64,000 bases of DNA from Methanolobus vulcani. Its GTDB lineage: Archaea; Halobacteriota; Methanosarcinia; Methanosarcinales; Methanosarcinaceae. The DNA lies in NCBI RefSeq assembly GCF_006546655.1, contig NZ_VIAQ01000008.1, forward strand, positions 124,001-188,000, in the 5' to 3' direction. Every line of letters starts with the position of its first letter. Position 1 is the first letter of the stretch. Shown here piece after piece: positions 6,444 through 22,648 of this stretch. The translations under genes were made by a program, and so were the position numbers. The notes under the pieces are model-generated. The model worked only from the letters and a program-made list of their open reading frames with translations. It was not told the DNA's origin and did not search any database.

Positions 6444-8174
6444 ATGAAATTGAACAAAAAAGTCATTTCATTTTTTTTATCAATGATGCTTATCATTTCT
6501 GTGTTCCTCTTGCCGGCAACGGGCTCAGAGAATGAAGAGAAGCAGAACAGAGTATTTACATCAAGCTGGAGTCAACTAACAACGGCAGACTCTGGCTTTC
6601 CATCCCCTTTTACATTCTACCCAAGAGGAGATGGTTACATTATGATGAGTTACTGTTTTGACACACTCATATGGCCTGATGAGAACGGCGAATTCATAGG
6701 ATTGCTTGCGGATTCGTGGGAAAGCTCTGCGGATGGTATTGAATGGACCTTTTATCTAAGAGAAAATGTCACATGGCACGATGGAGAACCTTTCACGGCA
6801 AATGATGTTGTTTTTACTATTAATTATATGAAAGAAAAAGCCCATGTTAGTCCAGTCGGTTCAAGCTGGTATAACACAGCGATCATAGACAACGTTAAAG
6901 CACCTGATGACCACACTGTTATCATAACGCTCAAGCAACCCTATGCCCCTTTCATGCAACTGGTTCTGGATGTCATACCAATCATGCCTGAACATATATG
7001 GAAAGATGTCTCTGATCCCAGTACATACATGGAAGAGGATGCAGTTGTCGGCACCGGACCTTTCATTCTGGAAGACTATGATAAGGAACAGAAATCCTAC
7101 AAATACTCTGCCAACAAAGATTATTTCCTTGGAGAACCAGTCATTGATACACTTATCTATGTACAGACATCTGATCCTATCCTTTCGCTAAAAACGGGAG
7201 AGGTCGATGAGTCCAGTCTTTCGTTTGACCAGGTGCAGGCTTTGTCTGACCAAGATAACCTGAAGGTTATCAGTGGGCCAGGATATCATGTTTACCGACT
7301 TAGGTTTAATATCCCTTCAAATGCGATACTCAATGATACTGATGTCCGCAAAGCCATCTATTATTCCCTTGACTGCGAAGATATAATGAGCAGAGTGCTT
7401 CATGGAGGAGGAGTTGTGGGCAATCCTGGATATGTACCACCCTACTCTAAATGGTATTATCCCGGTGTCACAAAGTATGCCTATGATCCTGAAAAGGCAA
7501 ACCAGATGCTTGATGATGCAGGATATCAGAATAAAGATACGGATGGCATCAGAATTGATCCGGACGGTAACAGACTCGAATTCCAGTTATTGTATCCAAC
7601 AGAACAGCAAAGCCAGAGACTGGCTGAGCTCATTCAGACTTACTTTAAAGAAGTTGGCATAGGTATCATCCTGAAACCCGGGGATAGGATGACAGTGGAT
7701 GGTCTGGTCGGATCAGGCAATTTTGAAATGGCAATCTACACTCACGCTACAGCCACAGAACCAGGGAATATGCTGAACTCATTCCCCACATCAACTGGAT
7801 GGAACAATTCTGAATTCATGTCCCTTGCGACTGAACAGATGGTAACAATGGATGAGGAAAAGCGTAAGGAACTCGTGGATCGTATGCAAGTCCTCATAGC
7901 AGATAATGTACCTACAATTCCCGTCTTTTACCGGGACATGTACAGCGCCTGCAATCAGGAAAAATTTGACGGTTTCTTCTATACACCTGAGGGTATAGCA
8001 GGCGGCATACCGGTAGAATACAACAAGCTTGCATTCATCTACGGAAATTGGAACGGCGAAAGTACTGAAGCTACAGAAGATACCAGCACCAATTCAGCAG
8101 ACAGTATAGGCATTTTCGGTTCGGTGGCTGTACTTGCATCTGCTTTCTTACTAAGGAAATACAGTCAATCATGA
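6444..8174 (+). CDS. family-5 solute-binding protein of a peptide/nickel-type ABC importer (copy 1)
   Basis: 576-residue extracytoplasmic binding protein (SBP_bac_5, the DppA/OppA/NikA/CntA fold). It has a signal peptide at 1-26, a binding domain at about 40-530, a Ser/Thr linker, and a C-terminal membrane segment ending in LLRKYSQS. It lacks a lipobox and so is probably anchored by the C terminus, an archaeal arrangement. The family binds peptides, nickel-histidine or metallophore complexes; the ligand cannot be read from sequence. GAGGTGG before the ATG is the ribosome binding site. A close paralogue follows directly, which suggests two ligand specificities for one permease. Confidence 0.88.
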   Translation: MKLNKKVISFFLSMMLIISVFLLPATGSENEEKQNRVFTSSWSQLTTADSGFPSPFTFYPRGDGYIMMSYCFDTLIWPDENGEFIGLLADSWESSADGIEWTFYLRENVTWHDGEPFTANDVVFTINYMKEKAHVSPVGSSWYNTAIIDNVKAPDDHTVIITLKQPYAPFMQLVLDVIPIMPEHIWKDVSDPSTYMEEDAVVGTGPFILEDYDKEQKSYKYSANKDYFLGEPVIDTLIYVQTSDPILSLKTGEVDESSLSFDQVQALSDQDNLKVISGPGYHVYRLRFNIPSNAILNDTDVRKAIYYSLDCEDIMSRVLHGGGVVGNPGYVPPYSKWYYPGVTKYAYDPEKANQMLDDAGYQNKDTDGIRIDPDGNRLEFQLLYPTEQQSQRLAELIQTYFKEVGIGIILKPGDRMTVDGLVGSGNFEMAIYTHATATEPGNMLNSFPTSTGWNNSEFMSLATEQMVTMDEEKRKELVDRMQVLIADNVPTIPVFYRDMYSACNQEKFDGFFYTPEGIAGGIPVEYNKLAFIYGNWNGESTEATEDTSTNSADSIGIFGSVAVLASAFLLRKYSQS

Positions 8175-8208
8175 AATAGAAAAATTCAGTAATTACAGGA
8201 GGATAAAA

Positions 8209-9942
8209 ATGCAAAAAACTGAAAAAATTATCTCATTAGCACTATCTGTGCTAATTATCAGTTCAATACTCTTCTTACCGGCAACAGCTTCAGAAACCAG
8301 TGATGTGCAGCAGGAAAGAGTGTTTACGACAACCATGAGCGGATATACAACATTGGACGGAGGATTCCCCTCTCCTCTCGCATTCAATACAAGAGGGGGA
8401 GGTTATGTAATGACAAGCAATTGTTTCGATACACTTGTCTGGCCTGACCAGAATGGGGAATTTATAGGATTACTTGCTGAGTCATGGGAAAGCTCTAAAG
8501 ATGGTATTGAATGGACCTTTAATCTAAGAGAAAATGTCACATGGCATGACGGAGAACCTTTCACGGCAGAGGATGTTGTTTTTACTATCGATTACATGAA
8601 AGACAAATCTCTGGCCACTTCCATTGAGGCAAGCTGGTACTATACACATTTAATAGAAAGTACTGAAGCTCTTGATGAACACACGGTCTTGATAACACTT
8701 AACCAGCCTTATGCTGCATTTATTCCATTGGTTGCAGGTGTCATACCCATCATGCCAGAACATATATGGAAGGATATCCCCGACCCGAAGAAATATACGG
8801 AAAAGGAAGCTGCCATTGGTACAGGTCCCTTCATTCTTGAAGATTATGATATGGATCAGAAATCCTACAAGTTTTCTGCTAACAAGGATTACTTCCTTGG
8901 AGAACCTATCATTGACACGCTTATCTATATTCAAACATCCGATACTTTGCTTTCTCTGAAAACCGGGGAAATTGATGAGTCCAGTCTTACATTTGACCAG
9001 GTACAGGCTATTGAAGAATCGGACAATTTAAAAGTTATTAGTGGCCCGGGATATCGGGTTTATCGTCTCAGATTCAATATTCCTTCAAATACCATACTCA
9101 ATGATATAGATGTACGCAAAGCCATGTCTTATTCCCTTGATTGCGAAGACATAGAAAGCAGAGTGCTGCACGGAGGAGGAACTCCCGGTAATCCCGGATA
9201 TGTAGCACCGTACTCTAAATGGTATAACCCAAATGTAATGCAATATGCATATGATCCTGAAAAAGCAAACCAGATGCTTGACGAAGCTGGTTATCAGGAA
9301 AGAGATAAGGATGGTATCAGACTTGATGCTGAAGGCAACCGTCTGGAATTCCAGTTGTTACATTCTTCTGATCAGCAAAGCCAGAGACTTGCAGAACTCG
9401 TACAAACGTATCTGGAAGATATTGGAATCGGTATAGTTCTTAAATCAGGGGATATGCAGACTGTTGAAGGCCTGGTTAGCGAAGGTAACTTCGATCTGGC
9501 AATTCATATGCACGGCACAACAAATTATCCTGGAAGAATGTTGAATCCCCTACCCTCAATAACAGGATGGAACAATTCTGAATTCGTGGCTCTTGCAGAA
9601 GAGCAAATCGTAACAGTAGATGAGGAAAAGCGTAAGGAACTTGTGAATCGTATGCAAGTTCTCATAGCCGATGAAGTACCCACTATTCCCATAATGTACA
9701 AGGACCTCTTTAGTGCCTGTAACCAGGATACGATTGACGGTTTTTTCTATACACCCGACGGCATAGCCGGTGGTTCATTTATGGAATGTAACAAGCTTGT
9801 CTTCATTTACGGAACCTGGAACGGCGAAAGTACGGAAGCTGCAGAAGACATCAGCACCAATTCTGCTGATGGCATAGGCATCCTCGGTTCGGCAGCTGTG
9901 CTTTTATGTGTCTTTTTATTAAGGAGAGACAAAAAACTGTAA
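8209..9942 (+). CDS. family-5 solute-binding protein of a peptide/nickel-type ABC importer (copy 2)
   Basis: 577-residue paralogue of the preceding gene, colinear over its full length including the signal peptide and the C-terminal membrane anchor. The strongest conservation is in blocks such as NVTWHDGEPFTA and NLKVISGPGY. Differences are concentrated in scattered stretches such as the segments after PSPLAF and NKDYFLGEP. A good ribosome binding site (AGGAGG) precedes the ATG. It arose by tandem duplication and is kept intact, so both copies are presumably used. The gene lies 34 bases after copy 1 and is translationally close to the first permease. Confidence 0.88.
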   Translation: MQKTEKIISLALSVLIISSILFLPATASETSDVQQERVFTTTMSGYTTLDGGFPSPLAFNTRGGGYVMTSNCFDTLVWPDQNGEFIGLLAESWESSKDGIEWTFNLRENVTWHDGEPFTAEDVVFTIDYMKDKSLATSIEASWYYTHLIESTEALDEHTVLITLNQPYAAFIPLVAGVIPIMPEHIWKDIPDPKKYTEKEAAIGTGPFILEDYDMDQKSYKFSANKDYFLGEPIIDTLIYIQTSDTLLSLKTGEIDESSLTFDQVQAIEESDNLKVISGPGYRVYRLRFNIPSNTILNDIDVRKAMSYSLDCEDIESRVLHGGGTPGNPGYVAPYSKWYNPNVMQYAYDPEKANQMLDEAGYQERDKDGIRLDAEGNRLEFQLLHSSDQQSQRLAELVQTYLEDIGIGIVLKSGDMQTVEGLVSEGNFDLAIHMHGTTNYPGRMLNPLPSITGWNNSEFVALAEEQIVTVDEEKRKELVNRMQVLIADEVPTIPIMYKDLFSACNQDTIDGFFYTPDGIAGGSFMECNKLVFIYGTWNGESTEAAEDISTNSADGIGILGSAAVLLCVFLLRRDKKL

Positions 9943-9964
9943 AATGCAAAGGAGACATACGGCA

Positions 9965-10960
9965 ATGAACAGGAAAAAAACAGGATATATATTGTCCAGA
10001 GGAATGGAATATGCCTTTACATTCTTTTTGATCATTGCCATTAATTTTTTTCTTCCACGTATAATGCCAGGTGGTCCGTTGCTCATCATCACAGGAAGCC
10101 AGAATGCAGATTTGCCGGTTGTTCTGGACGAAGAGACAAAGTACAAACTAATGGACTACTATAACCTCAACGACCCACTTCACATTCAATTCATACATTA
10201 TCTGGCAGATGCTGCACACCTTGATTTTGGATATTCCTTTTTATACAATGTTCCGGTAATGGATATCATTCTTGGAAGACTGTCCAGGACAATCCTGCTT
10301 ATGGGGTCAGCATTGGTTTTCTCAACGATTTTTGGCATAGTACTGGGAATTGAATCCGGATGGAAACGAGGAAGTAAACTCGATAATGCATTGCTTACGA
10401 TAGTGCCCGTATTCAGGTCCATGCCTGCATTTTTCCTTGGAGCCATTATGATATTTATATTTGGATACAGAATGGGGTGGTTCCCATTGTCTGGTGCTCT
10501 CACCCCATACATGGATTATGCAGGCATGTTTGATCACGCAAGTGACATCCTTTCCCATCTAACATTACCCATGCTTTGTCTTTCGGCTTTCGAAATGCCA
10601 GGAACGTACCTGCTTATGAGGAATGTCTGTGTCCAGCAACTGGAAAGACCTTATGTCCTTATGGCTACTGCCAGAGGACTGAAGGACAGAAGTATCAAAA
10701 AACATGTGCTTATCAATTCTATTGCACCTGTGATAAATCAGATAGCTGCTATGCTGGGATTCATGGTAGGGGGTGCTGTGTTCATAGAAACTGTTTTTTC
10801 ATACCCTGGCATGGGAATGCTTGTCTATAGCTCATTTATTGAGAGGGACTACCCTGTACTTCAGGGAGCTTTCATAGTCATATCACTTTGCGTGCTGGCT
10901 TGTAACTATGCTGCAGATATCACATGTTCATATATCGATGGCAGGGCAGGGCAGGGATGA
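9965..10960 (+). CDS. ABC importer permease, DppB/NikB type
   Basis: 331-residue inner-membrane permease (six membrane segments) of the binding-protein-dependent transporter family. The EAA loop, the contact to the ATPase, lies around residues 215-235 (ARGLKDRSIKKHVLINS). I prefer the ATG at 9965, which follows AAAGGAG by a normal distance, over an upstream ATG at 9944. It pairs with the next permease to form the channel. Peptide, nickel and metallophore importers share this family, so the substrate is open. Confidence 0.9.
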   Translation: MNRKKTGYILSRGMEYAFTFFLIIAINFFLPRIMPGGPLLIITGSQNADLPVVLDEETKYKLMDYYNLNDPLHIQFIHYLADAAHLDFGYSFLYNVPVMDIILGRLSRTILLMGSALVFSTIFGIVLGIESGWKRGSKLDNALLTIVPVFRSMPAFFLGAIMIFIFGYRMGWFPLSGALTPYMDYAGMFDHASDILSHLTLPMLCLSAFEMPGTYLLMRNVCVQQLERPYVLMATARGLKDRSIKKHVLINSIAPVINQIAAMLGFMVGGAVFIETVFSYPGMGMLVYSSFIERDYPVLQGAFIVISLCVLACNYAADITCSYIDGRAGQG

Positions 10961-11787
10961 AAATGCACAAAAGAATAATTTCAGAGGGAATTAAAAGTCC
11001 AAAAGGAACTGTCGGGCTCATCATGCTATCTTTATTTATTTCAATGGCCTTTGCAGCCCCAATGCTTGCACCCTATTCCCCTTCGGATGTATCAAGCAGC
11101 CCTTTACTTGCTCCTGACGGAGATCATCTGTTGGGTACTGACGATGTAGGCAGGGACATATTCAGCAATTTACTCTACGGTGCAAGGACATCACTTACTG
11201 TTGCTTTTGTAGTCTCTCTCGGAGTTTTGGTGATTGGTACTCTTGCAGGGGTATTTTCAGGATACACTGGCGGCAAAATTGACAGGGTGATGATGCGGGG
11301 AGTAGACATATTCCTGATGATACCTGACCTGCCACTCATCCTCATCCTTGCAGCCTACTTACGCCCTAGCATATGGAACATTATATTCATTCTCACTATC
11401 ATGGGCTGGCCAGTGGGGGCCAGGATCACACGAGCACAGACAAGGACACTAAGGATATCCGGACACGTTGATTTTGCCAGGGTATCCGGAGCCATGGATT
11501 GGTACGTTATCAAAAAACACATAATTCCGGATCTTTACCCGATCATGATCACCACCGTTGTTATGCAATCTATCCGGGCCATTCTCTCGGAATCAGGACT
11601 TGCATTCCTTGGTCTTGGAGATCCTTCGTACCCGAGCTGGGGAACAATGATAAAATATGCAATTGCATACCCTTTAGTGTTCTTTACCGATGCCTGGATG
11701 TGGTGGCTGCTTCCTGCAGGGATATGCATTACAATGCTTGTTCTGGGCTTTGTTTTCATTGGACAGGCTATGGAAGGTGATAAATAA
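10957..11787 (+). CDS. ABC importer permease, DppC/NikC type
   Basis: 276-residue second permease subunit. It has an N-terminal membrane segment, then five further ones, with the EAA loop near residues 165-195 (RVSGAMDWYVIKKHIIPD). The start at 10957 gives the ATGA overlap with the previous stop codon that is typical of translationally coupled subunits; GGGCAGGG is the ribosome binding site. It forms a heterodimeric channel with the preceding gene product. Confidence 0.9.
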   Translation: MKMHKRIISEGIKSPKGTVGLIMLSLFISMAFAAPMLAPYSPSDVSSSPLLAPDGDHLLGTDDVGRDIFSNLLYGARTSLTVAFVVSLGVLVIGTLAGVFSGYTGGKIDRVMMRGVDIFLMIPDLPLILILAAYLRPSIWNIIFILTIMGWPVGARITRAQTRTLRISGHVDFARVSGAMDWYVIKKHIIPDLYPIMITTVVMQSIRAILSESGLAFLGLGDPSYPSWGTMIKYAIAYPLVFFTDAWMWWLLPAGICITMLVLGFVFIGQAMEGDK

Positions 11788-12740
11788 TGACAGTACTTGA
11801 TGTCCAGGGACTAACAGTAGATTTTTCAACAAAGGGGGGCAAACATCACATTCTAAAGAATGTAGCCCTCAATATTGGTAAAGGCGAGATCGTGGGTTTA
11901 ATTGGTGAATCCGGCTCCGGTAAATCAACACTTGCTATGACTATTCTTGATATCAATTCCAAAAACAGGGAAATGTATGGAAATATTCGTTTCAGGGGTG
12001 AAGAACTCAGCAATATCAGCAAGGAAAGAATGCGAAAATTACGTGGCAAGCATATCGGTTTTGTTCCACAATCTTCTATGAACGCGCTCAATCCCCTTAT
12101 AAAAATTGAAAAACAGTTCACTGAAACCATAAAAACTCATACGGAAATGCCTGCGCAACAAATGTTTGAGCTGACCAGCAAAACACTGGAAATGGTAGCA
12201 ATTGATCCATCGAGAACAAACTCATTTCCCTATGAATTTAGTGGAGGGCAGCGCCAGAGAATAATGATAGCACTTTCTATGCTTCTTTCCCCGGAACTTA
12301 TCATCGCAGATGAACCCACGACTGCCCTGGATGCAACAGTACAGTCAAGAATTATTGATTTGCTGAAAGAAGTTGTAGAGCAAAAACATACTTCAATGCT
12401 TGTAATATCTCATGACCTGCATACCATTTCCAGAATTTGTGACAGGATATATATCATGTATGGAGGAAGAATCGTGGAGGTTGGCAGTACGGAACAAATA
12501 ATTCATCATCCAAAACATCCCTATACGCAAAAACTTCTTTCTTCTAGGATACCCTTGATGGCTGAGCCTGTGAAAGTAAAAGGCATATCCGGAAAACCAC
12601 CGTCTACCCTGATAAAGCATAGCAGATGTGAATTTCTGGAAAGGTGTGACAGGGCTTCAGTCATATGCGAGGCAAAAAGACCCCCGGAATGCATAGGCAA
12701 TGTAAGAGTAGCATGTCATTTTGGTGAAGGACATGAATGA
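11787..12740 (+). CDS. ABC importer ATPase, DppD/NikD type
   Basis: 317-residue ATP-binding subunit. Walker A is GESGSGKST, the signature is FSGGQRQR, Walker B is LIIADEP, and the switch His is in ISHDLH. The C-terminal tail (about 255-317) is the oligopeptide-type extension with four or five Cys (CEFLERC, VIC, PPEC, VAC), seen in Dpp/Opp ATPases and in some proteins binding a metal cluster. The start overlaps the previous stop (TAATG), with GGAAGGTG upstream. It works as a heterodimer with the next gene product. Confidence 0.92.
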   Translation: MTVLDVQGLTVDFSTKGGKHHILKNVALNIGKGEIVGLIGESGSGKSTLAMTILDINSKNREMYGNIRFRGEELSNISKERMRKLRGKHIGFVPQSSMNALNPLIKIEKQFTETIKTHTEMPAQQMFELTSKTLEMVAIDPSRTNSFPYEFSGGQRQRIMIALSMLLSPELIIADEPTTALDATVQSRIIDLLKEVVEQKHTSMLVISHDLHTISRICDRIYIMYGGRIVEVGSTEQIIHHPKHPYTQKLLSSRIPLMAEPVKVKGISGKPPSTLIKHSRCEFLERCDRASVICEAKRPPECIGNVRVACHFGEGHE

Positions 12741-13515
12741 GCAAGAACTTATAAGAATGGACAACCTCATCAAAGTGTTCAAAAAGAACTTTTTCTCCAG
12801 GAAAAGCTCAGATGTCGTAGCACTTGATGGAGTTTCTCTTTTGTTGAACAAGGGAGAGATACTTGGCATTATAGGGGAAAGTGGATGTGGCAAGACTACT
12901 CTGGCAAAATTGTTACTGGGACTTTTAAAGCCAGACTCTGGAACAATAACATTTGCAAATCTCAAGAATGCTGAATATGATGTTCGTAAACCTGTAGTTC
13001 AGGTTATCTTCCAGGACCCTTATGATTCTTTGAGTCATTTAATGACCATTGAAGAGATTGTGGCAGAGCCGTGTATCATAAAGCATGGAGAAGCATATGA
13101 TGCCGATAAAGTGTGCAAGGCTCTTGAATCCGTGGGCCTTACACCGACAGATGAATATCTGAATAAATATCCTCACACCCTCAGTGGTGGGCAGCGCCAG
13201 AGGGTGGCAATCGCCAGGGCTATAGTTACTGAACCTGACATTATAATAGCCGATGAACCCATATCAATGCTTGATGCTTCAATTGGAGTGGATATCCTTA
13301 ATCTCCTTCTTGATATGAATGAGAAAATGGGGGTTACTTTCCTGTTCATTACTCATGATATAGCCGCTGCTGCCTATATCTGTGACAATATCGCAGTGAT
13401 GAAAGAAGGAAAGGTAGTCGAGTATGGCACACGAAAACAGATAATCTCTGGATGTAGGCATAAGTACACATGCACATTGCTCTCCGCAGCGAGAGGGGAA
13501 AATGCGGTAATTTGA
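12733..13515 (+). CDS. ABC importer ATPase, DppF/NikE type
   Basis: 260-residue second ATPase subunit. Walker A is GESGCGKTT, the signature is LSGGQRQR, Walker B is IIIADEP, and the switch is ITHDIA. It is shorter than its partner because it lacks the Cys-rich C-terminal extension, which resembles NikE more than DppF. I take the ATG at 12733 (8-base overlap with the previous gene); in-frame TTG 12721 or GTG 12724 are alternatives. It is the last gene of the importer operon. Confidence 0.9.
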   Translation: MNEQELIRMDNLIKVFKKNFFSRKSSDVVALDGVSLLLNKGEILGIIGESGCGKTTLAKLLLGLLKPDSGTITFANLKNAEYDVRKPVVQVIFQDPYDSLSHLMTIEEIVAEPCIIKHGEAYDADKVCKALESVGLTPTDEYLNKYPHTLSGGQRQRVAIARAIVTEPDIIIADEPISMLDASIGVDILNLLLDMNEKMGVTFLFITHDIAAAAYICDNIAVMKEGKVVEYGTRKQIISGCRHKYTCTLLSAARGENAVI

Positions 13516-13943: not shown

Positions 13944-14339
13944 ATGAGTGAAAAAATTGGAATTTTGGCTATTGGACACGGAAGCAGATTACCCTACAAC
14001 AACCAGGTTGTCACTGAGATCACTAATATGATATCAGAAGCTCACCCTGAATATATAGTAAAGACAGGCTTCATGGAAAACAGCAAACCTACAGTTGAAG
14101 AGGCACTAATGTCCTTTGAAGGCACAGGAGTAACAACAATAGCTGCTGCACCTGTATTCCTTGCATCAGGTATCCACATTACTATGGACATCCCTGCAGT
14201 TCTTGATCTGGATCCTGAGACAAATGAGGGGGAAGTCGAATTTGATGGACAGAAGGTCAAGATAGTCTATGCCAAACCCCTTGGAAGCGACAAGCTCATC
14301 GCAGATATTATCTTTAATAGAGTACAGGAAGCCCTTTAG
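13944..14339 (+). CDS. cfbA: small CbiX-type chelatase (sirohydrochlorin cobalto-/nickelochelatase, CfbA-like)
   Basis: 131-residue single-domain chelatase. Archaeal CbiX-S/CfbA inserts Ni2+ (coenzyme F430 route) or Co2+ (cobamide route) into sirohydrochlorin and acts as a homodimer. The two metal/substrate His residues are visible: His12 in AIGHGSR and His78 in ASGIHIT. The length is standard for the archaeal short form. AAGGAAGG precedes the ATG. It is alone in its transcript and shares promoter and operator with the ABC importer, the activase and the PadR operon, unlike a plain housekeeping copy. Whether a second copy exists elsewhere in the genome cannot be seen. Nickel and cobalt use cannot be told apart from sequence. 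Confidence 0.85.
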
Positions 14340-14842
14340 TTGTGTCGCTTACGCGGCATTCTTTTTTGTTTTGATTATGGTTTTTATTGGAATTCAGATA
14401 TCAAGGTCAAACAGACCTGATCTTGCACTGGCCATATTTTTCTTAATATTATAAGATTACGCGCAATATCAAGTCGTGTCTGTAATTCACTGACTTTTCT
14501 TATAGGACTGCAAAATTATTTTTAATAAGAGAGGACGCAAACACTTTCACAATAAATCAATCACAATTATGTTGCTTGAATTTAATTTGCATTATATTTT
14601 GAAAAGAACAAAACTGCTAATAATAATTACCAAAGAAGAAGAGCTTTCTGTAAAGCTGTTTTGCAGTCGATGTAAAAAAACAAACCTATTTTTCATACTG
14701 AGATTCAAGATGTTATCACAAATCGTAAGATTTATAATTAAGTATCTCTATACGCAGTAACAGTTAGATTCCAACCGTTTTGTTTTAAACTATTGGTGGA
14801 TAATGAAAGATAATGTAAGATGCATTAACAAAGAGGCAGAAA
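14340..14842. other. intergenic region before the activase gene
   Basis: No gene. A T-rich stretch at 14361-14375 just after the chelatase stop may terminate its transcript. The second copy of the duplicated promoter block is at 14655-14787. Confidence 0.6.
14712..14782 (+). promoter_or_regulatory. promoter and operator of the tandem activase gene (shared regulon site 3)
   Basis: GTTATCA (14712-14718), ATCGTAA (14722-14728), TATA box TTTATAATT (14731-14739) and operator AGTTAGATTCCAACC followed by GTTTTG (14762-14782). The spacing from TATA to operator is 31 bases. Nearly all positions agree with site 2 because the whole block is duplicated. Confidence 0.68.
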
Positions 14843-17800
14843 ATGACAAGTCCTACTCCGAATAATGGAAGAAACACACGTGACTCTGTAGAATTAGATA
14901 AGATGCAAGATTCAGATCCAGAATATAGTCTGGGGATTGACATCGGTTATTCATCAGTGAAGATTGCGCTCATTGATGAAGATAATGATGTTGTTCATAC
15001 GGATTATGTCTTGCATAAAGGAAAGATCAAAGAGAAACTTAATCAAATTATTATAGAACTGTCGGAAAAGTATGATACTGGACCAATAGTAACCTGTGCA
15101 GTAACCGGTAGTGAAAGTAAGTTCTTATCTAACTATGGGGATGTAATTCATATAAACGATGTTTCTGCCCTTATCGAGGGTAGCATCTTAACGAATGAGA
15201 ATATTTGCTCCATAATAGAAATAGGTGGAGAAACTGCGAGATACATCACCGGTTTTGGAAAAAATACCAAATCTAATTTAGAGATTTCAATGAATTCAAA
15301 CTGTGCTGCTGGAACAGGTTCTTTTCTCGAAGAGCAAGTATCAAGGCTCGGTCTGGACATAGAGGATTATTCTTTTTATGCTGCCCAAAGCAAGTCCGTT
15401 CCAAGAATAGCCGGTAGATGCAGCGTTTTTGCAAAAACCGATGTTATTCATCATCAACAGGAAGGTGTTCCTGTAGAAGATATTCTGCAAGGGTTAGCTT
15501 ACGCAGTGGTGAGAAACTATAAGGGAGCTGTTATCAAGAGACTACCTCTGGAAAAACCACTCATTCTGACAGGCGGTGTAGCATTCAATAGAGCAATTGC
15601 CAATGCGTTAAAGGATATCCTGAAGCTTGATGATGATGAGCTTTTCATATCAGAAAAATGTGGAAATATTGCTGCAATCGGTGCAGCAGTGATTGCTAAA
15701 GAAAAGGATTTGAGAATAGACATCTCCAAAATACTGAACATCCTAAAGGATATGAGGATTTCTTCTACGTCAAAAGTCCAAACTGTTAATCTGCCTGCAT
15801 TGGGTCAATTTGGATTAGGTGACAGCGGGAACAAGCACATATGCAAAATCCCTGATAGTTGTAATGATATGACAAACTGCTATCTTGGTGTTGATATTGG
15901 ATCGACCAGTACAAATCTTGTATTGATCGATGAAATGAACGATATAATAGCTTACAGATATCTGAAAACACTTGGGAATCCGAAAAAAGCTGTAGTTGAA
16001 GGTTTAAAGGAATTGAGAGAGGAGTATGGTGACAGAGTAAATATAATTGGGGCAGGTACCACCGGTTCAGGAAGGTATATGATTGCAAAACTTATCGGAG
16101 CTGACCTTATAAAAGATGAGATTACAGCACAAGCAAAAGCGGCAGTTTCTATTGATAGCTCTGTTGATACGGTATTTGAGATAGGTGGCCAGGATTCCAA
16201 GTATATCAGTTTGAATGATGGCATAGTTACCGACTTCCAGATGAATAAAATATGTGCTGCCGGAACAGGCTCTTTCATTGAAGAACAAACAAACAAGTTC
16301 GACATCAATATAGATGAATTCGGTGAGATTGCATTAAAAAGCAATAAACCGGTTTATCTTGGGGAAAGATGCACTGTTTTTATAGAAACAAGCATTGCCG
16401 CCCACTTAGCCAGCGGAACCCGGATAGAAGACATTGCATCAGGACTTTGCTACTCGATAGCAAAAAATTACCTCAACAGGGTCGTAGGTCAGAAAAAAAT
16501 AGGGAACAGGATTTTTCTCCAGGGAGGTATTGCACACAACCAGGGAGTTGTAAACGCCTTCCAGGTGCTTACTGGAAAAGATATTGTCGTACCACCGTTC
16601 TTTAGTGTGACTGGTGCCTATGGAGTGGCTGTTTTGACAAAGGAGGAGATCGGATCGGCAAAGACCACCTTCAAAGGATTCAATATAGAGGAAAACTCCC
16701 TACAGGTAATTAATCCTGAAAAGCCAAATGTTGAATGCAAGGAGAAATCGGAATTTAATGAAATGGTAAATAAATTGATGTTTGAGGATTATGATGGATC
16801 AATAGATCAAAGTAAAAAGACCATTGGCCTTCCGAGAGCTCTTTTTACATATGGGATGTATCCGATGTTCAGTGCCTTTTTCAGGGAACTGGGTTATAAT
16901 GTCGTTCTGTCTGATCCTACCAGTGAAGAAACGATAAGACTTGGTCAGGAATATTCACTTGATGAAATGTGTTATCCTGTCAAACTGATCAATGGGCATG
17001 TTGCAGAGCTGGTAAATAAGAAGGTGGATTATATTTTTTTCCCGGACCTGTATACAGTTGTGCATCCGGGATCTCACACACGTCTGGATTTTGGCTGCCC
17101 CTATATGCAACTTGCATTTAAAATAGTTAACAGGGCAATGGAACTTGATAAAAAGGGTATAGAAATGCTTTCTCCTACCATAGGTTTTAGTCTGGGAGAA
17201 GAATTCATGAGAAACAGTTTCATGGCTCTTAGTAATCAGCTTGGAAAGAGTCCTGATGATACCATTAGTGCTCTTCAGAAGGGAATGCAGGGATTCCATG
17301 ATTTTGAGAAGAGGATGGAACAAATGGGAAAGGAAATTGTCAAAGGTCTCAAACCTGACGAAAAGGCGTTTATATTAATATCAAAAAGCTATGGAGTTGC
17401 TGATCCGGTATTGAATTTGTCCATCCCTGAAAAGCTTAAGGAGATGGGTTACAGGGCACTTCCATTTTACAACTTGCCCGAAGGCGATGTAGCTAATGAA
17501 CATCCTAATATGTACTGGCCTTTCGGCCAGCATATCCTTGAAGCAGCACAGGTTGTCAGAAGTCATCCCAATCTTTATGCAATACTCCTTACTCATCATG
17601 GCTGCGGCCCAGATACGGTATTTTCCCACTATTTCAGAGAAATAATGGCTGATAAACCCTATCTTAACATAGAGGTCGACGAACATTCTTCAGGAGTAGG
17701 TGTTACAACAAGACTTGAAGCTTTCGTGAACAGTTTACAAAATATTCCTACGGAAACAGCAGAAGATATGGATACTTATCTGTCTCAGCTGTCCCATACC

Positions 17801-18922
17801 GATGCTCGTATAAAAACAAGTTTGTATGGCACTCCGAAAAATGCACAGTTTTATCTCCCTGATCTATACCCTTACTCCCAGCTTATCTGTGAGTTACTGA
17901 AAACATACGGGATAGATGCGAAAACACTACCAAAAACAAATGAAAAATCCATAGATGGAGGAAGAAAATACACTGTTACAAATGAATATTTCTCAATGGC
18001 TGCTCTGATTGGGGATGTACTTGCTATTCCCGGAATTCGTGATCGGGATGAATATCAGAAGTTTTTACTGGTCCCTCAATCAGAAGGGGCAGAAGTGGAT
18101 GGACAGTATAACCGCTTTTTGCGAACTGTCCTGGACGAAGAAGGAATCAAAGACGTTAGTATCATCGCTCCGTTCATGGAAGATCTGCTCAATAAGGATG
18201 ATGTTTTTCTCCAAAATGTTTTCCTTATTCTTATTGCAGGAGACATAATCAGGAACACTCCTTATGTTTCAAGGGATAGTTACATGAAAACAGTTCTTGA
18301 CAAGATGAAAAGCGGTCAGCTGAGTATTGAAGTGCTGAAATCAGTGCTTAAAGTTGCCTCCGACGAATGCAGATCCAGAAACTTCGAAAAGAATATTTTT
18401 GCGATTGGGGAGCCAATGATCTTATATAACGATTTCCTGCATAACCACATTTTCGGGGAAATTGAATCCAGGGGTTATCGTGTAGTATGTGCTCCATTCA
18501 GTGAATACATGTGGCAATTATGGAAAGATTTTGCTGATCAGGCAAACGAGGAGAATAGACCAGTATTACAGGCAAAGCTGGATGTGTTCAAAGGCTTTAT
18601 TTCGGACATCTCTAATTCAATATCTGGCTGTAGTCCCTTTGAAAAAGATCTTGATGATCTGATTGTAAGAGCAGATAATACAATGGGTTACTATGCAGGT
18701 GCCTTTGGGAGATATAGGGGGTCGAAAATCCTTGGAGAACTTGAGGGCATGGATGGAGTTATTACAGTTACTTCTATGTATGAGAATACGGGAATCTTGC
18801 TCAATACTCTGCACAAAGGGTTCGAGAACGAAAATAACAAGCCTGTCCTCAATTTGACATTTGATGGCAATAAAAACGAAAATGACGAGTCTAGGGTTGA
18901 ATCATTCCTGTATTACCTGTAA
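14843..18922 (+). CDS. tandem BcrAD/HgdC-type ATP-dependent activase fused to an HgdB-like reductase part
   Basis: 1359-residue cytoplasmic protein. Two ASKHA-fold activase domains (about 28-300 and 347-610) are followed by a DUF2229 domain (about 655-870, with MCYPVKLINGH) and a long C-terminal region (about 880-1330) resembling the HgdB/dehydratase-partner family. Both activase domains keep the phosphate loops (GIDIGYSS, GVDIGSTS) and the two [4Fe-4S]-ligating Cys: C154/C193 and C471/C510. In the family a homodimer holds one cluster and uses ATP to push an electron to very low potential. Here the dimer seems fused into one chain. The target is unknown; 2-hydroxyacyl-CoA dehydration is not expected in methanogens, so another difficult reduction is inferred. 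AGAGG precedes the ATG. Confidence 0.85.
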   Translation: MTSPTPNNGRNTRDSVELDKMQDSDPEYSLGIDIGYSSVKIALIDEDNDVVHTDYVLHKGKIKEKLNQIIIELSEKYDTGPIVTCAVTGSESKFLSNYGDVIHINDVSALIEGSILTNENICSIIEIGGETARYITGFGKNTKSNLEISMNSNCAAGTGSFLEEQVSRLGLDIEDYSFYAAQSKSVPRIAGRCSVFAKTDVIHHQQEGVPVEDILQGLAYAVVRNYKGAVIKRLPLEKPLILTGGVAFNRAIANALKDILKLDDDELFISEKCGNIAAIGAAVIAKEKDLRIDISKILNILKDMRISSTSKVQTVNLPALGQFGLGDSGNKHICKIPDSCNDMTNCYLGVDIGSTSTNLVLIDEMNDIIAYRYLKTLGNPKKAVVEGLKELREEYGDRVNIIGAGTTGSGRYMIAKLIGADLIKDEITAQAKAAVSIDSSVDTVFEIGGQDSKYISLNDGIVTDFQMNKICAAGTGSFIEEQTNKFDINIDEFGEIALKSNKPVYLGERCTVFIETSIAAHLASGTRIEDIASGLCYSIAKNYLNRVVGQKKIGNRIFLQGGIAHNQGVVNAFQVLTGKDIVVPPFFSVTGAYGVAVLTKEEIGSAKTTFKGFNIEENSLQVINPEKPNVECKEKSEFNEMVNKLMFEDYDGSIDQSKKTIGLPRALFTYGMYPMFSAFFRELGYNVVLSDPTSEETIRLGQEYSLDEMCYPVKLINGHVAELVNKKVDYIFFPDLYTVVHPGSHTRLDFGCPYMQLAFKIVNRAMELDKKGIEMLSPTIGFSLGEEFMRNSFMALSNQLGKSPDDTISALQKGMQGFHDFEKRMEQMGKEIVKGLKPDEKAFILISKSYGVADPVLNLSIPEKLKEMGYRALPFYNLPEGDVANEHPNMYWPFGQHILEAAQVVRSHPNLYAILLTHHGCGPDTVFSHYFREIMADKPYLNIEVDEHSSGVGVTTRLEAFVNSLQNIPTETAEDMDTYLSQLSHTDARIKTSLYGTPKNAQFYLPDLYPYSQLICELLKTYGIDAKTLPKTNEKSIDGGRKYTVTNEYFSMAALIGDVLAIPGIRDRDEYQKFLLVPQSEGAEVDGQYNRFLRTVLDEEGIKDVSIIAPFMEDLLNKDDVFLQNVFLILIAGDIIRNTPYVSRDSYMKTVLDKMKSGQLSIEVLKSVLKVASDECRSRNFEKNIFAIGEPMILYNDFLHNHIFGEIESRGYRVVCAPFSEYMWQLWKDFADQANEENRPVLQAKLDVFKGFISDISNSISGCSPFEKDLDDLIVRADNTMGYYAGAFGRYRGSKILGELEGMDGVITVTSMYENTGILLNTLHKGFENENNKPVLNLTFDGNKNENDESRVESFLYYL

Positions 18923-19289: not shown

Positions 19290-19333
19290 TAAAAAACCGT
19301 AACCTTATAATATTTGGCAAGTAAGTGTTCAAC

Positions 19334-19813
19334 ATGAGTAATATATGGAAATTTACACCGGAAAGTGGGAAGGAAAGGGGACTACTTACAGCTCTGGTTC
19401 TTCATTTACTTGAGATGGGGCCAAAATCAGGTTATGATCTGCTAAAAGAAATAGCTGAAAAAACGGGTGGCTCCTGGACCCCAAATAAAGGTACATTGTA
19501 TCCTCTCTTAAAATCCCTTGATGAAGAGGGAGTTATTCGGGTTAAAGAAATCGGCAAGCGTTCTAAAAGAATTTATGAACTAACGGATACAGGCAAAGAA
19601 ACCATCACAAATATCAGGAACATGAAGAGTCAATCTACGGCACGCGTAAATTTTTTTAAAGACATGCATTTCGAAATATTTGGTACAGAAAATCAGTCTC
19701 TAGTTAGCCTCCTGATGGAAATGAGATTTTATGTGGAAGATCTTCCCCAAGAGAAAAAAGAAAGAGCAATAGAGATTTTGGAGGCTACTTTCGAGGAAAT
19801 AAAGAAACTTTGA
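19334..19813 (+). CDS. PadR-family transcriptional regulator
   Basis: 159-residue winged-helix regulator. The PadR domain is at about residues 14-85 with the typical SGYDLLKEI and NKGTLYPLLKSLDEEG stretches. A C-terminal helical dimerisation part (about 95-159) includes a segment rich in Glu and Lys. The start is taken at ATG 19334, in the same frame as an upstream GTG at 19325. PadR proteins usually repress by binding a dyad over the promoter. This gene carries such a dyad itself (19269-19283) and is the only regulator directly behind one, which makes it the best candidate to control the four related promoters. The signal it senses is unknown. Confidence 0.85.
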   Translation: MSNIWKFTPESGKERGLLTALVLHLLEMGPKSGYDLLKEIAEKTGGSWTPNKGTLYPLLKSLDEEGVIRVKEIGKRSKRIYELTDTGKETITNIRNMKSQSTARVNFFKDMHFEIFGTENQSLVSLLMEMRFYVEDLPQEKKERAIEILEATFEEIKKL

Positions 19814-19861: not shown

Positions 19862-20413
19862 ATGTCTGAAGAAATAAAGGATAATATGAAATTTAAACAA
19901 GATATTTTCATAGTACCTGTAGGGATAATTAAAAATGATCTTAAGGCCCCACCTCTTGTTGCTGGAGATGACGGGTTAAAACTGAATGATGCTTGTGATT
20001 CTGCAATTACTAAATTGAATGATTCCAGTGACAGGATATCTGAAATAATCCTTACAGACGTGTCTACTGACCTTCTGGAAGGTATTGAAGATTATTCTCA
20101 TGCAATGATTATTTACTGGGGACATGAAATCACAGATGCTGCCCGGAAACTTAAGAAAGTCCATCCTGCTGGTCTAAAGGATTATCCATTAAAAGGTATT
20201 TATTCCACTTGCAGTCCAGCCAGACCAAATCCGATTCTCATGACAATTGTAAGGATTATAAAAATAACAAATAATGGGATACTTGTTTTTGGTCTTGATG
20301 CAATTGACAACAGCCCGGTTTTGGATATCAAACCATATGTGCCTGATTTGTATCCTCAGGAAGATGTCATGATTCCTGAATGGATGGAACAGATTATGGA
20401 GAAATTTAGATAA
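19862..20413 (+). CDS. TrmO/TsaA-family methyltransferase-like protein
   Basis: 183-residue protein with the TsaA/TrmO (YaeB) fold, a beta-barrel SAM-dependent family. TrmO N6-methylates t6A37 in tRNA. The family signature is seen as CSPARPNPI at residues 117-125, compared with the usual RSPxRPNPIG, and HPAG near 101-104. The Gly after PNPI is Leu here. The gene lies 48 bases after padR and 24 bases before the FmdE gene in the same transcript. Divergence at the signature and the operon context leave room for a substrate other than tRNA. Confidence 0.75.
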   Translation: MSEEIKDNMKFKQDIFIVPVGIIKNDLKAPPLVAGDDGLKLNDACDSAITKLNDSSDRISEIILTDVSTDLLEGIEDYSHAMIIYWGHEITDAARKLKKVHPAGLKDYPLKGIYSTCSPARPNPILMTIVRIIKITNNGILVFGLDAIDNSPVLDIKPYVPDLYPQEDVMIPEWMEQIMEKFR

Positions 20414-20437: not shown

Positions 20438-21244
20438 GTGGTCTATGGAACATACGAAAATACAGGAATGGCTTTTTGTTCAGGAATCTTTAATGATCAG
20501 GATATCGAAATTTTGAAAGACAAACCCCGTACTAACTTTACATCGGCGATTAAAAAAATGGATGCTACATCCTGTCTAATAAAAACCGCCGAAATACACG
20601 GTCATTTTTGTCCTGGAAGTGCATTGGGCGTAATGGCTTCATTGTATGGTCTGAGTCTTCTCGAAAATGAAGTGATCGAGTCAGATGGTATTATGGAAAA
20701 CCTGCTTGCGATTGTTGAAGTGAATGCATGTTTTGCTGATGGGATCCAGGCGGTTTCGGGCTGTACGCTGGGGAATAATTCTTTGATTTACCGTGATCTG
20801 GGAAAACATGCAGTAACATTTGCAATCCGTGGAAAAGAGAAAGGTGTGCGTGTGAAGGTTCTTCCAGAGTTTAAAGAGTATATAGAAGACTCAGTTCCTG
20901 AGTTTTATCCTTTGATGGAAAAGGTTATCGTCAAACGTCAAGGAAGTTCGGAGGATGAAAAAAAATTCAAGGAAACAGCACGAGAGGCTGCATTTTCCAT
21001 GACAAAAATTCCTTTTGATAAACTGTTTTCAGTTGAGACTACTGTACCGGATATACCAGACTATGCTCCTATAACCGATTCTGTAATATGCCCTGAATGT
21101 GGAGAAGTAGTAATGGCTTCGAAAGTTTGCAAGTCGGGATTAAAGAAAGGGATGTGTTTCATGTGCAGTGGGCACTACTCAGAAGTTGAAGGTAAAGGGA
21201 TTGTTGAAAAATCCTCGGTGATAATAAAAGGCAATGATTGTTAG
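20438..21244 (+). CDS. FmdE-family protein with C-terminal zinc ribbon
   Basis: 268-residue protein. The FmdE domain is at about residues 40-200 with the HGHFCPG signature (His54, His56, Cys58). A C-terminal four-Cys zinc ribbon lies at about 217-250 (CPECG ... CFMC). FmdE was first described beside molybdenum formylmethanofuran dehydrogenase genes, but its biochemical role is unclear; metal or cofactor binding is suspected from the conserved His/Cys. The start is GTG 20438, supported by AGGAAGG seven bases upstream. It sits between TrmO-like and methyltransferase genes, an arrangement that suggests a common metal- or cofactor-linked task rather than formylmethanofuran oxidation, since no fmd/fwd subunits are nearby. 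Confidence 0.82.
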   Translation: MVYGTYENTGMAFCSGIFNDQDIEILKDKPRTNFTSAIKKMDATSCLIKTAEIHGHFCPGSALGVMASLYGLSLLENEVIESDGIMENLLAIVEVNACFADGIQAVSGCTLGNNSLIYRDLGKHAVTFAIRGKEKGVRVKVLPEFKEYIEDSVPEFYPLMEKVIVKRQGSSEDEKKFKETAREAAFSMTKIPFDKLFSVETTVPDIPDYAPITDSVICPECGEVVMASKVCKSGLKKGMCFMCSGHYSEVEGKGIVEKSSVIIKGNDC

Positions 21245-21284: not shown

Positions 21285-21908
21285 ATGAAAATATGTAGAA
21301 CTCAATGCCCTTCGGAAAGACGTAATTCTCATCACAGAGGAAAGGAAAGTAGTTTTTGGATGCATGATCCTGAACTTATTTTTAATGAACTTGACCTTAA
21401 AAAAGGTGAGGTTTTTCTGGATTTCGGATGCGGAACAGGAGATTATTCAATCCATGCTGCCGAAAAAATAGGTGAAACAGGTCTTGTGTACGCTATAGAC
21501 ATTAAAAAAGAATTAATCGATAATCTGGTTCAGAGGACTGAGAAAGCGGGCCTGGAAAATTTAATAGCTATTGTTAGCGATGCCCGCGAACAGCTTCCCT
21601 TTGAAGATAAATCTATTGATCTGTGTTTGATTTCTACGGTCCTTCACACAATGAACCTTGAAGATGCAGGAAAGACGATTTTTACAGAAATCGGACGTGT
21701 TTTGAAACCGGGAGGCAGGTTGATCATCATAGAATGCAAAAAAGAAGATTCGAAGTTTGGACCTCCGTTAAGCATGCGTATTTCCCCTGATGAAATGGAA
21801 GAATACGTTTACGCATCTGATTTTGAAAAGAGCAATATTGTAGATCTTGGATATAACTACATGATTAAATTCGTATCAATGAAAGACAATTCAGGAGTGC
21901 ACGGCTGA
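21285..21908 (+). CDS. class I SAM-dependent methyltransferase (UbiE/MenG-like)
   Basis: 207-residue methyltransferase with a Rossmann-type SAM domain at about residues 25-165. Motif I is LDFGCGTGDY (45-54), with an acidic residue after the second strand (AIDIKKE) and GRVLKPGGRLIIIE later. The N terminus holds Cys4, Cys8 and a His-His pair, which might bind a metal. The substrate is unknown; small molecules such as a cofactor, quinol or metalloid are typical of the family. It is the last gene of the padR transcript, 40 bases after the FmdE gene. Confidence 0.82.
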   Translation: MKICRTQCPSERRNSHHRGKESSFWMHDPELIFNELDLKKGEVFLDFGCGTGDYSIHAAEKIGETGLVYAIDIKKELIDNLVQRTEKAGLENLIAIVSDAREQLPFEDKSIDLCLISTVLHTMNLEDAGKTIFTEIGRVLKPGGRLIIIECKKEDSKFGPPLSMRISPDEMEEYVYASDFEKSNIVDLGYNYMIKFVSMKDNSGVHG

Positions 21909-22156
21909 TTCATTTATACAGCGAAATATTTTCTCTGGCATTTGTATTTTACAGAGCAGCTGTGAAACTATGTTTTCATAGTGGATATTTCAAAAATTTG
22001 GCTTTGTAGATAAACTATCAAAATCAGATCAATTAAATCAAAGTAGTCAAATCTGTTCAATGACAGTCAGTGGTTCAAAATTACTGTTCACTTCGTTTTC
22101 TCAGAATTTCGAGGATTTTTACAGAGCCGTTAGCTGCATTAAAAAAGAGGCATAAA
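21909..22156. other. intergenic region, no gene
   Basis: 248 bases before the DtxR-family gene. No copy of the regulon operator was found here. There is a possible weak stem around GCAGCTG at 21956-21962. Nothing else stands out. Confidence 0.5.
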
Positions 22157-22648
22157 ATGGTAACAGAAAGGGCAGAAGATTACCTTAAGATTATAAGGAA
22201 AATCATAGAAAAAAAAGGGTATGCCCAGGTAAAAGATGTTTCAAGGGAGCTTGAACTGAGTTCTCCCAGCGTGACAGTGATGTTCAGGAAGCTTACCAAC
22301 CAAGGGTACATCAACTATGAGAAATACGGCGGAGTGACCCTTACTCCTGAAGGTGAGAGAATTGCTAAGTGTACTATTGAAAAACATGGAATCATCAAGG
22401 ATTTACTGCTGATGCTGGGAATTAATGAGACCATAGCCAATCAGGATGCCTGCAAGATTGAGCATGTGTTAGCCCCCGAAACCTTTGATGTTCTTGCAAA
22501 GCTTGTTGAATTTGTCGGTGAAACGAATAACAGGCTCTATTGGATTGAGTCTTTCAGGCATTTCTATGCAACCGGTCAATATATTGACTTCAGTCCTTCG
22601 GCAAAAGATACCTGCCCGATAAACGGAAAAGAGACAAAATCAAACTAG
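22157..22648 (+). CDS. DtxR/MntR-family metal-dependent regulator, short form
   Basis: 163-residue repressor-type protein. A winged helix (about 5-70) is followed by a metal-binding/dimerisation domain (71-140). In MntR numbering the visible ligands are Asp8, His77, Cys99, Glu102 and His103; position 11 is Lys. Cys at 99 is like DtxR/IdeR (iron type) instead of the Glu of MntR. The SH3-like third domain is absent. The start is ATG 22157 with GAGG just upstream; an in-frame ATG 87 bases earlier lacks support. The gene is separate from the padR operon and is a second possible sensor of metal state for this region. Confidence 0.82.
   Translation: MVTERAEDYLKIIRKIIEKKGYAQVKDVSRELELSSPSVTVMFRKLTNQGYINYEKYGGVTLTPEGERIAKCTIEKHGIIKDLLLMLGINETIANQDACKIEHVLAPETFDVLAKLVEFVGETNNRLYWIESFRHFYATGQYIDFSPSAKDTCPINGKETKSN

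Follow-up and report, generated by a model that had tools for sequence, protein, structure and literature searches.

A one-chain ATP-driven reductase with metal-related gene neighbours in Methanolobus vulcani

The window analysed here is a stretch of 64,000 nucleotides from the methanogenic archaeon Methanolobus vulcani (contig NZ_VIAQ01000008.1). On its plus strand, at 14843..18922, lies one open reading frame (ORF) with an ATG start that encodes a protein of 1359 amino acids, which we call the fusion. Pfam, NCBIfam, alignment and structure models place it as a single-chain reductase of the activase2-HgdB2 type. That all four modules of a complete ATP-driven reductase of the benzoyl-CoA reductase/2-hydroxyacyl-CoA dehydratase (BCR/HAD) type are present in one chain is well supported. 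A Pfam scan finds BcrAD_BadFG twice, followed by DUF2229 at residues 660–874. The NCBIfam model CoA_E_activ matches two stretches with 285.7 bits (cut-off 125.4), so that the first half belongs to the TIGR00241/PF01869 activases. A fusion of two activases with DUF2229 has already been published. What is of interest is its tie to metal-uptake genes.

The same domain layout is common to 52 aligned relatives, which rules out a chance fusion. Methanogenesis marker 15, a protein of methyl-coenzyme M reductase (MCR) activation, was also rejected as an identity, because its model TIGR03286 gives 190.6 bits on the fusion, far under the cut-off of 455.75. Cysteines were counted in 52 rows: the window, a paralogue from the same genome (60% identity, G000:C3:73046-77074, locus L076) and 50 of the 58 related loci. 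The remaining eight, whose sequences are partial, broken or odd, were excluded (L017, L018, L027, L041, L051, L054, L063 and L065), and duplicate own-genome fragments were also removed. The models A1 and A2 contain 43 and 42 rows after removal of near-duplicates; L007 was left out, and A2 also lacks L030 on account of its truncated ORF. The copy of Methanogenium cariaci (L027, 7943-12102) is broken across three reading frames, by sequencing error or decay.

The first activase domain (residues 28-284, 14924..15694, plus strand) is BcrD/MbdP-like, and the second (residues 347-601, 15881..16645, plus strand) is HgdC/MbdQ-like. A first-pass annotation of this DNA had noted two activase domains that keep the cluster cysteines Cys154, Cys193, Cys471 and Cys510, and each of these cysteines is kept in all 52 sequences. 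MbdP is the best match of domain 1 (E 1.4e-26), with Cys154 and Cys193 aligned to the MbdP cysteines. For domain 2 it is HgdC (E 1.7e-33), with Cys471 and Cys510 aligned to the cysteines of the HgdC motifs CAAGTG and CTVF. Domain 2 has GGQD in 52 of 52 sequences, whereas in domain 1 the residue after GGQ is mostly S or a different one (GGQ(S/T/E)); MbdP has GGQT there. Given the different best matches and the GGQD difference, the two domains are an unequal BcrD-like/BcrA-like couple like MbdP/MbdQ, as judged from the sequences, and not a copied homodimer. The annotation's statement that the family normally forms two identical subunits is therefore incomplete: heterodimeric activases such as MbdP/MbdQ are known, and they are among the closest matches here. 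In a predicted structure of residues 26-1012 (mean predicted local distance difference test score, pLDDT, 84.9; predicted template modelling score, pTM, 0.82) the stretch 345-606 superposes on the activator of 2-hydroxyisocaproyl-CoA dehydratase with Z about 31.5-31.6 and 31% identity.

The HgdB-like domain follows at residues 645-975 (16775..17767, plus strand) and has DUF2229 inside. That an HgdB-like part stands behind the activases had been proposed before, and the structure bears it out. Residues 645-968 of a model of 645-1359 (pLDDT 90.9, pTM 0.90) superpose on chains of 2-hydroxyisocaproyl-CoA dehydratase, BzdNO and the double-cubane cluster protein (DCCP) with Z 14.5-16 (Foldseek E 6e-5 and weaker). 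The best of these fold matches has Z 16.0, a root-mean-square deviation of 3.8 and 271 aligned residues. Only fold comparison gave such a match; sequence searches of the Protein Data Bank returned nothing relevant, whether started from the HgdB-like half or from profiles of it. Beyond what the first-pass annotation had noticed, the fusion has a fourth domain and three further invariant cysteines, Cys710, Cys752 and Cys921, each present in 52 of 52 sequences. They may hold a [4Fe-4S] cluster with one open iron, and they match BzdO Cys95, Cys128 and Cys380 by pattern only. With the activase pair and this three-cysteine site in one polypeptide, the suggestion that electron donor and acceptor share a chain also holds.

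The remaining residues 990-1359 (17810..18919, plus strand) have neither a Pfam match in the Pfam scan nor a conserved cysteine in the 52-sequence alignment. Profile comparison with hhalign relates them to the fusion's own HgdB-like module (E 6.6e-5, probability 64, 197 columns) and to a separate protein of 419 amino acids at locus L092 (E 6.6e-11, probability 97); structure-search matches of the 645-1359 model cover its first half only. The 419-residue protein has a DUF2229 match and a weak HGD-D match. Its TCYP cysteine aligns with EYFS of the fused module. Hence, this module appears to be a second HgdB-like subunit whose cluster has been lost. At L092 (8235-12441) the reductase is split into proteins of 981 and 419 amino acids, and four related archaeal genomes contain the 981-residue frame. 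A protein of 574 amino acids, molybdopterin-binding by eye, lies beside the split reductase.

Among named systems, the class I (3-methyl)benzoyl-CoA reductases MbdONPQ/BzdNOPQ share the unequal activase pair (domain 1 is close to MbdP, domain 2 to HgdC, HadI and MbdQ) and, in a catalytic subunit with the fold of the HgdB-like domain, a three-cysteine [4Fe-4S] site. They differ in having four subunits instead of one chain, and the gene context of the fusion is not aromatic degradation. Their partner subunit BzdN carries an [8Fe-9S] cluster, whereas the C-terminal module here has no conserved cysteine. According to PMC11971306, this cluster is held by six cysteines. A double-cubane enzyme such as DCCP was rejected on the same count: the folds agree with DCCP and its reductase DCCP-R (Z 14.5-14.8 and 26.6), but six cysteines are needed per [8Fe-9S] cluster, and one module of the fusion conserves three and the other none. 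The 2-hydroxyacyl-CoA dehydratase HadBC with its activator is alike in both folds (Z about 31.5 for the activase, 16 for the HgdB-like part). Its activator, however, is a separate homodimer, and no acyl-CoA genes were found near the fusion. A fusion of two YjiL domains with DUF2229, next to a separate Hgd-D-like gene, is described in PMC11362221 and represented here by L092. It has the same four modules but in two genes, and its smaller partner keeps a cysteine where the fused module has none.

Most relatives of the fusion (58 loci) are bacterial, which speaks against a methanogen speciality. Within the host's order 5 of 185 genomes have a match, 4 of them with the protein in full length. In the sample of its archaeal phylum 13 of 392 genomes match: eight with the full-length form, four with the 981-residue form and one with a fragment. 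All nine archaeal rows of full length group in a single clade (support of the Shimodaira-Hasegawa-like approximate likelihood ratio test 100) within a bacterial group. Under this topology, rooted at the midpoint only, the archaeal fusion was likely gained by transfer from bacteria.

In the window, the fusion stands among further genes of the plus strand. Upstream, at 6444..13515, lies an ATP-binding cassette (ABC) importer of the Opp/Nik/Cnt type with two binding proteins, two permeases and two ATPases. Its first binding protein and first ATPase were identified by NCBIfam, the permeases and second ATPase by clustering with L044 and by eye. The two binding proteins are similar and stand in tandem (6444-9942). 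Downstream follow a PadR-family regulator of a conserved archaeal block (19325..19813, Pfam), a TrmO_N (TsaA) protein (19862..20413, Pfam), an FmdE-family protein (20438..21244, Pfam), an S-adenosylmethionine (SAM)-dependent methyltransferase with three conserved cysteines (21285..21908, Pfam and alignment) and a metal-dependent regulator of the DtxR/MntR type (22070..22648, domain scan). A repetitive protein of 872 amino acids, probably of the surface layer, is encoded on the minus strand at 22858-25476.

The methyltransferase is the most consistent partner gene of the fusion. Seven of eight archaeal genomes have one close homologue each, always next to the fusion, while G100 has none and carries only the paralogue-type fusion. 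FmdE adjoins the fusion in six of the eight. According to a paper on FmdE structures (PMC2954224), most genes of the FmdE family lie next to metal-ion transporter genes. The archaeal loci L089-L091 all have the methyltransferase, TrmO, FmdE and Peripla_BP_2, and FecCD is present in L089 and L090. TrmO_N and FmdE are joined in one protein of about 440 amino acids beside the reductase in a bacterium (L030, 6004-7329) and in two archaea (L090, 13930-15255; L091, 5020-6342). Small proteins with a FeoA domain (upstream) and a DGC domain (downstream) directly flank archaeal fusions (L089, 8497-8775 and 12873-13151; L090, 12816-13067), and in L089 FeoA directly precedes the fusion. Of the nine archaeal fusion genes, five have a FecCD permease gene within 6 kb, compared to 0.42 expected (P 2e-5, assuming independent loci, which they are not). 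Its stop codon overlaps the start of the fusion as ATGA (4 bp) in the own-genome paralogue and in L075 of genome G100.

To describe the wider neighbourhood, we counted genes within 4.5 kb in 61 loci, leaving out L074 (its genome is already represented by L044) and L057 (target ORF displaced by a longer opposite ORF). The most frequent neighbours are ABC ATPases (29 loci), Crp/Fnr regulators (25), SAM methyltransferases (22), SsuA-like binding proteins (19) and cupins (11). Rarer are Fur/PerR (7), DtxR/MntR (6), Peripla_BP_2 (6), FecCD (5), TrmO (5), FmdE (5) and siderophore-type TonB receptors (3). Crp/Fnr and cupins recur by the bacterial copies, and we tie neither to a substrate. Some bacterial copies (L021, L025, L034 and L013) have SufBD-like genes nearby, next to ABC ATPases that look like SufC by eye. 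The recurring company of the fusion is metal-related: the methyltransferase, TrmO, FmdE, importers of the FecBCD, SsuABC or Opp type, TonB receptors and Fur/DtxR regulators.

To explain this company, we propose that the fusion is a one-chain BCR/HAD-type reductase that reduces an imported metal chelate with ATP-driven electrons. We give this proposal, whose substrate comes from the gene context, an even chance; a function assigned by recurring gene company is moderately supported. Going by the family, the activase pair would hold a bridging [4Fe-4S] cluster and would take one electron from a ferredoxin-type donor. ATP hydrolysis would lower the potential of this electron, which would then be injected into the reductase cluster with the open iron site. 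The final acceptor may be a siderophore-, metallophore- or tetrapyrrole-like chelate delivered by the neighbouring importers. Its reduction would release the metal or make it usable, and the methyltransferase, TrmO and FmdE proteins might modify or bind the ligand or the metal. According to PMC11965169, the reduction potentials of Fe(III)-siderophores are very negative, and their iron is released by hydrolysis, a shift in potential or reduction. An ATP-driven donor would suit such substrates. In the literature searched, which did not take in key papers on double-cubane enzymes, no metal-acquisition role of the fusion was found.

Several points weigh against this proposal. The neighbour genes come from a crude ORF caller, and the Fe-S clusters of the fusion are predicted from cysteines alone. 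Importers vary by locus (FecBCD, SsuABC-like, Opp/Nik-like), and no scanned importer component reaches the curated cut-off for one ligand. Four of the nine archaeal fusion genes, the window's included, have no FecCD nearby, and genome G134 (L073) has no recognised importer near the fusion. In the gut-bacterial branch the neighbours are SsuABC-like genes and cupins but no such methyltransferase, so that the substrate of this branch may differ.

Alternatively, the fusion may, like its named relatives, be an (aromatic) acyl-CoA reductase or dehydratase that acts on a CoA thioester. Enzymes of the BCR/HAD family are known for CoA thioesters, and DCCP for small molecules, with no role assigned. The nearest solved relatives act on acyl-CoA, and the 2024 paper PMC11362221 assigns the two-YjiL plus DUF2229 fusion of Ruminococcus metagenome-assembled genomes, with its Hgd-D-like neighbour, as an acyl-CoA reductase. 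Yet the conserved company of the fusion consists of transport, regulation and methyltransferase genes. Among the 18 annotated neighbour clusters (of 34 present in at least three loci) there is no fermentation or acyl-CoA family. The first-pass annotation had not expected a methanogen to dehydrate hydroxyacyl-CoA and named consistent fermentation neighbours as a sign against its own reading; the reduced substrate is probably not an acyl-CoA. We consider this main rival unlikely.

The methyltransferase and the importers could also serve another type of compound. An organo-metalloid or a thiol or selenium compound (arsenic, selenium or mercury type) would be imported by SsuABC-like or FecBCD systems and reduced by the fusion, and the methyltransferase would act on the same compound. 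The three conserved cysteines of the methyltransferase fit this idea, as does its best NCBIfam match, arsenite methyltransferase (72.8 bits), and an SsuC-like permease resembles SaoP (109 bits). However, both matches are under their cut-offs (263, by far, and 295), and the iron-type regulators and receptors favour metals. We consider a substrate of this type distinctly improbable.

Still less probable is that the fusion has no small-molecule substrate of its own but, in the manner of RACE proteins and the MCR activation complex, activates by reduction an enzyme with a corrinoid or metal cofactor. Methanogens are known to use reductive activation driven by ATP (PMC12176620). The genome of M. 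vulcani also holds a single-domain activase (a 423-residue frame, C1:133524-134297), Mmp15-like by guess. But reductase domains are already part of the fusion, its neighbourhood shows no conserved target enzyme, and most methanogens sampled lack the fusion.

The window also contains a gene for a CfbA-type sirohydrochlorin nickelochelatase (13944..14339, plus strand; NCBIfam 157.6, cut-off 120), which is probably not part of the unit. On its account the first-pass annotation had suggested co-regulation with a CbiX/CfbA chelatase. The two genes are 503 bp apart and a terminator-like stem lies between them at 14339-14359, although such stems are weak evidence alone (six in the region, compared to 5.0 in shuffles). 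Among called ORFs, a cfbA-like neighbour occurs in 1 of 68 loci, the window only. With this, the co-regulation claim is not supported, and an F430 biosynthesis unit with CfbA is rejected for lack of a conserved cfbA linkage. The genome has three CfbA-type genes, the other two in tandem (G000:C14:143058-143429 and 143708-144079), and one may be specialised. A dedicated nitrogenase-like reductase, CfbCD, serves F430 biosynthesis. That the fusion acts with its neighbour CfbA to reduce a nickel tetrapyrrole, as its place downstream of cfbA and the spare chelatases might suggest, is highly improbable given the single linked locus, the stem and the restriction of the full-length fusion to 4 of 185 genomes of the order.

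The reduction of an imported metal chelate remains our preferred reading. More broadly, and more tentatively, the one-chain branch of the BCR/HAD family may serve metal acquisition in anaerobes: electrons of very low potential would strip metal from imported chelates that are beyond ordinary flavin reductases, and the methyltransferase/TrmO/FmdE block would handle the ligand or the metal. If the conserved tie to metal-chelate import is true, it would give the large orphan family of DUF2229 fusions a testable job. It would also connect ATP-driven super-reduction with the metal nutrition of anaerobes, gut bacteria and methanogens included. The one-chain reductase would, moreover, be a handy single-gene system for studies of ATP-gated electron transfer.

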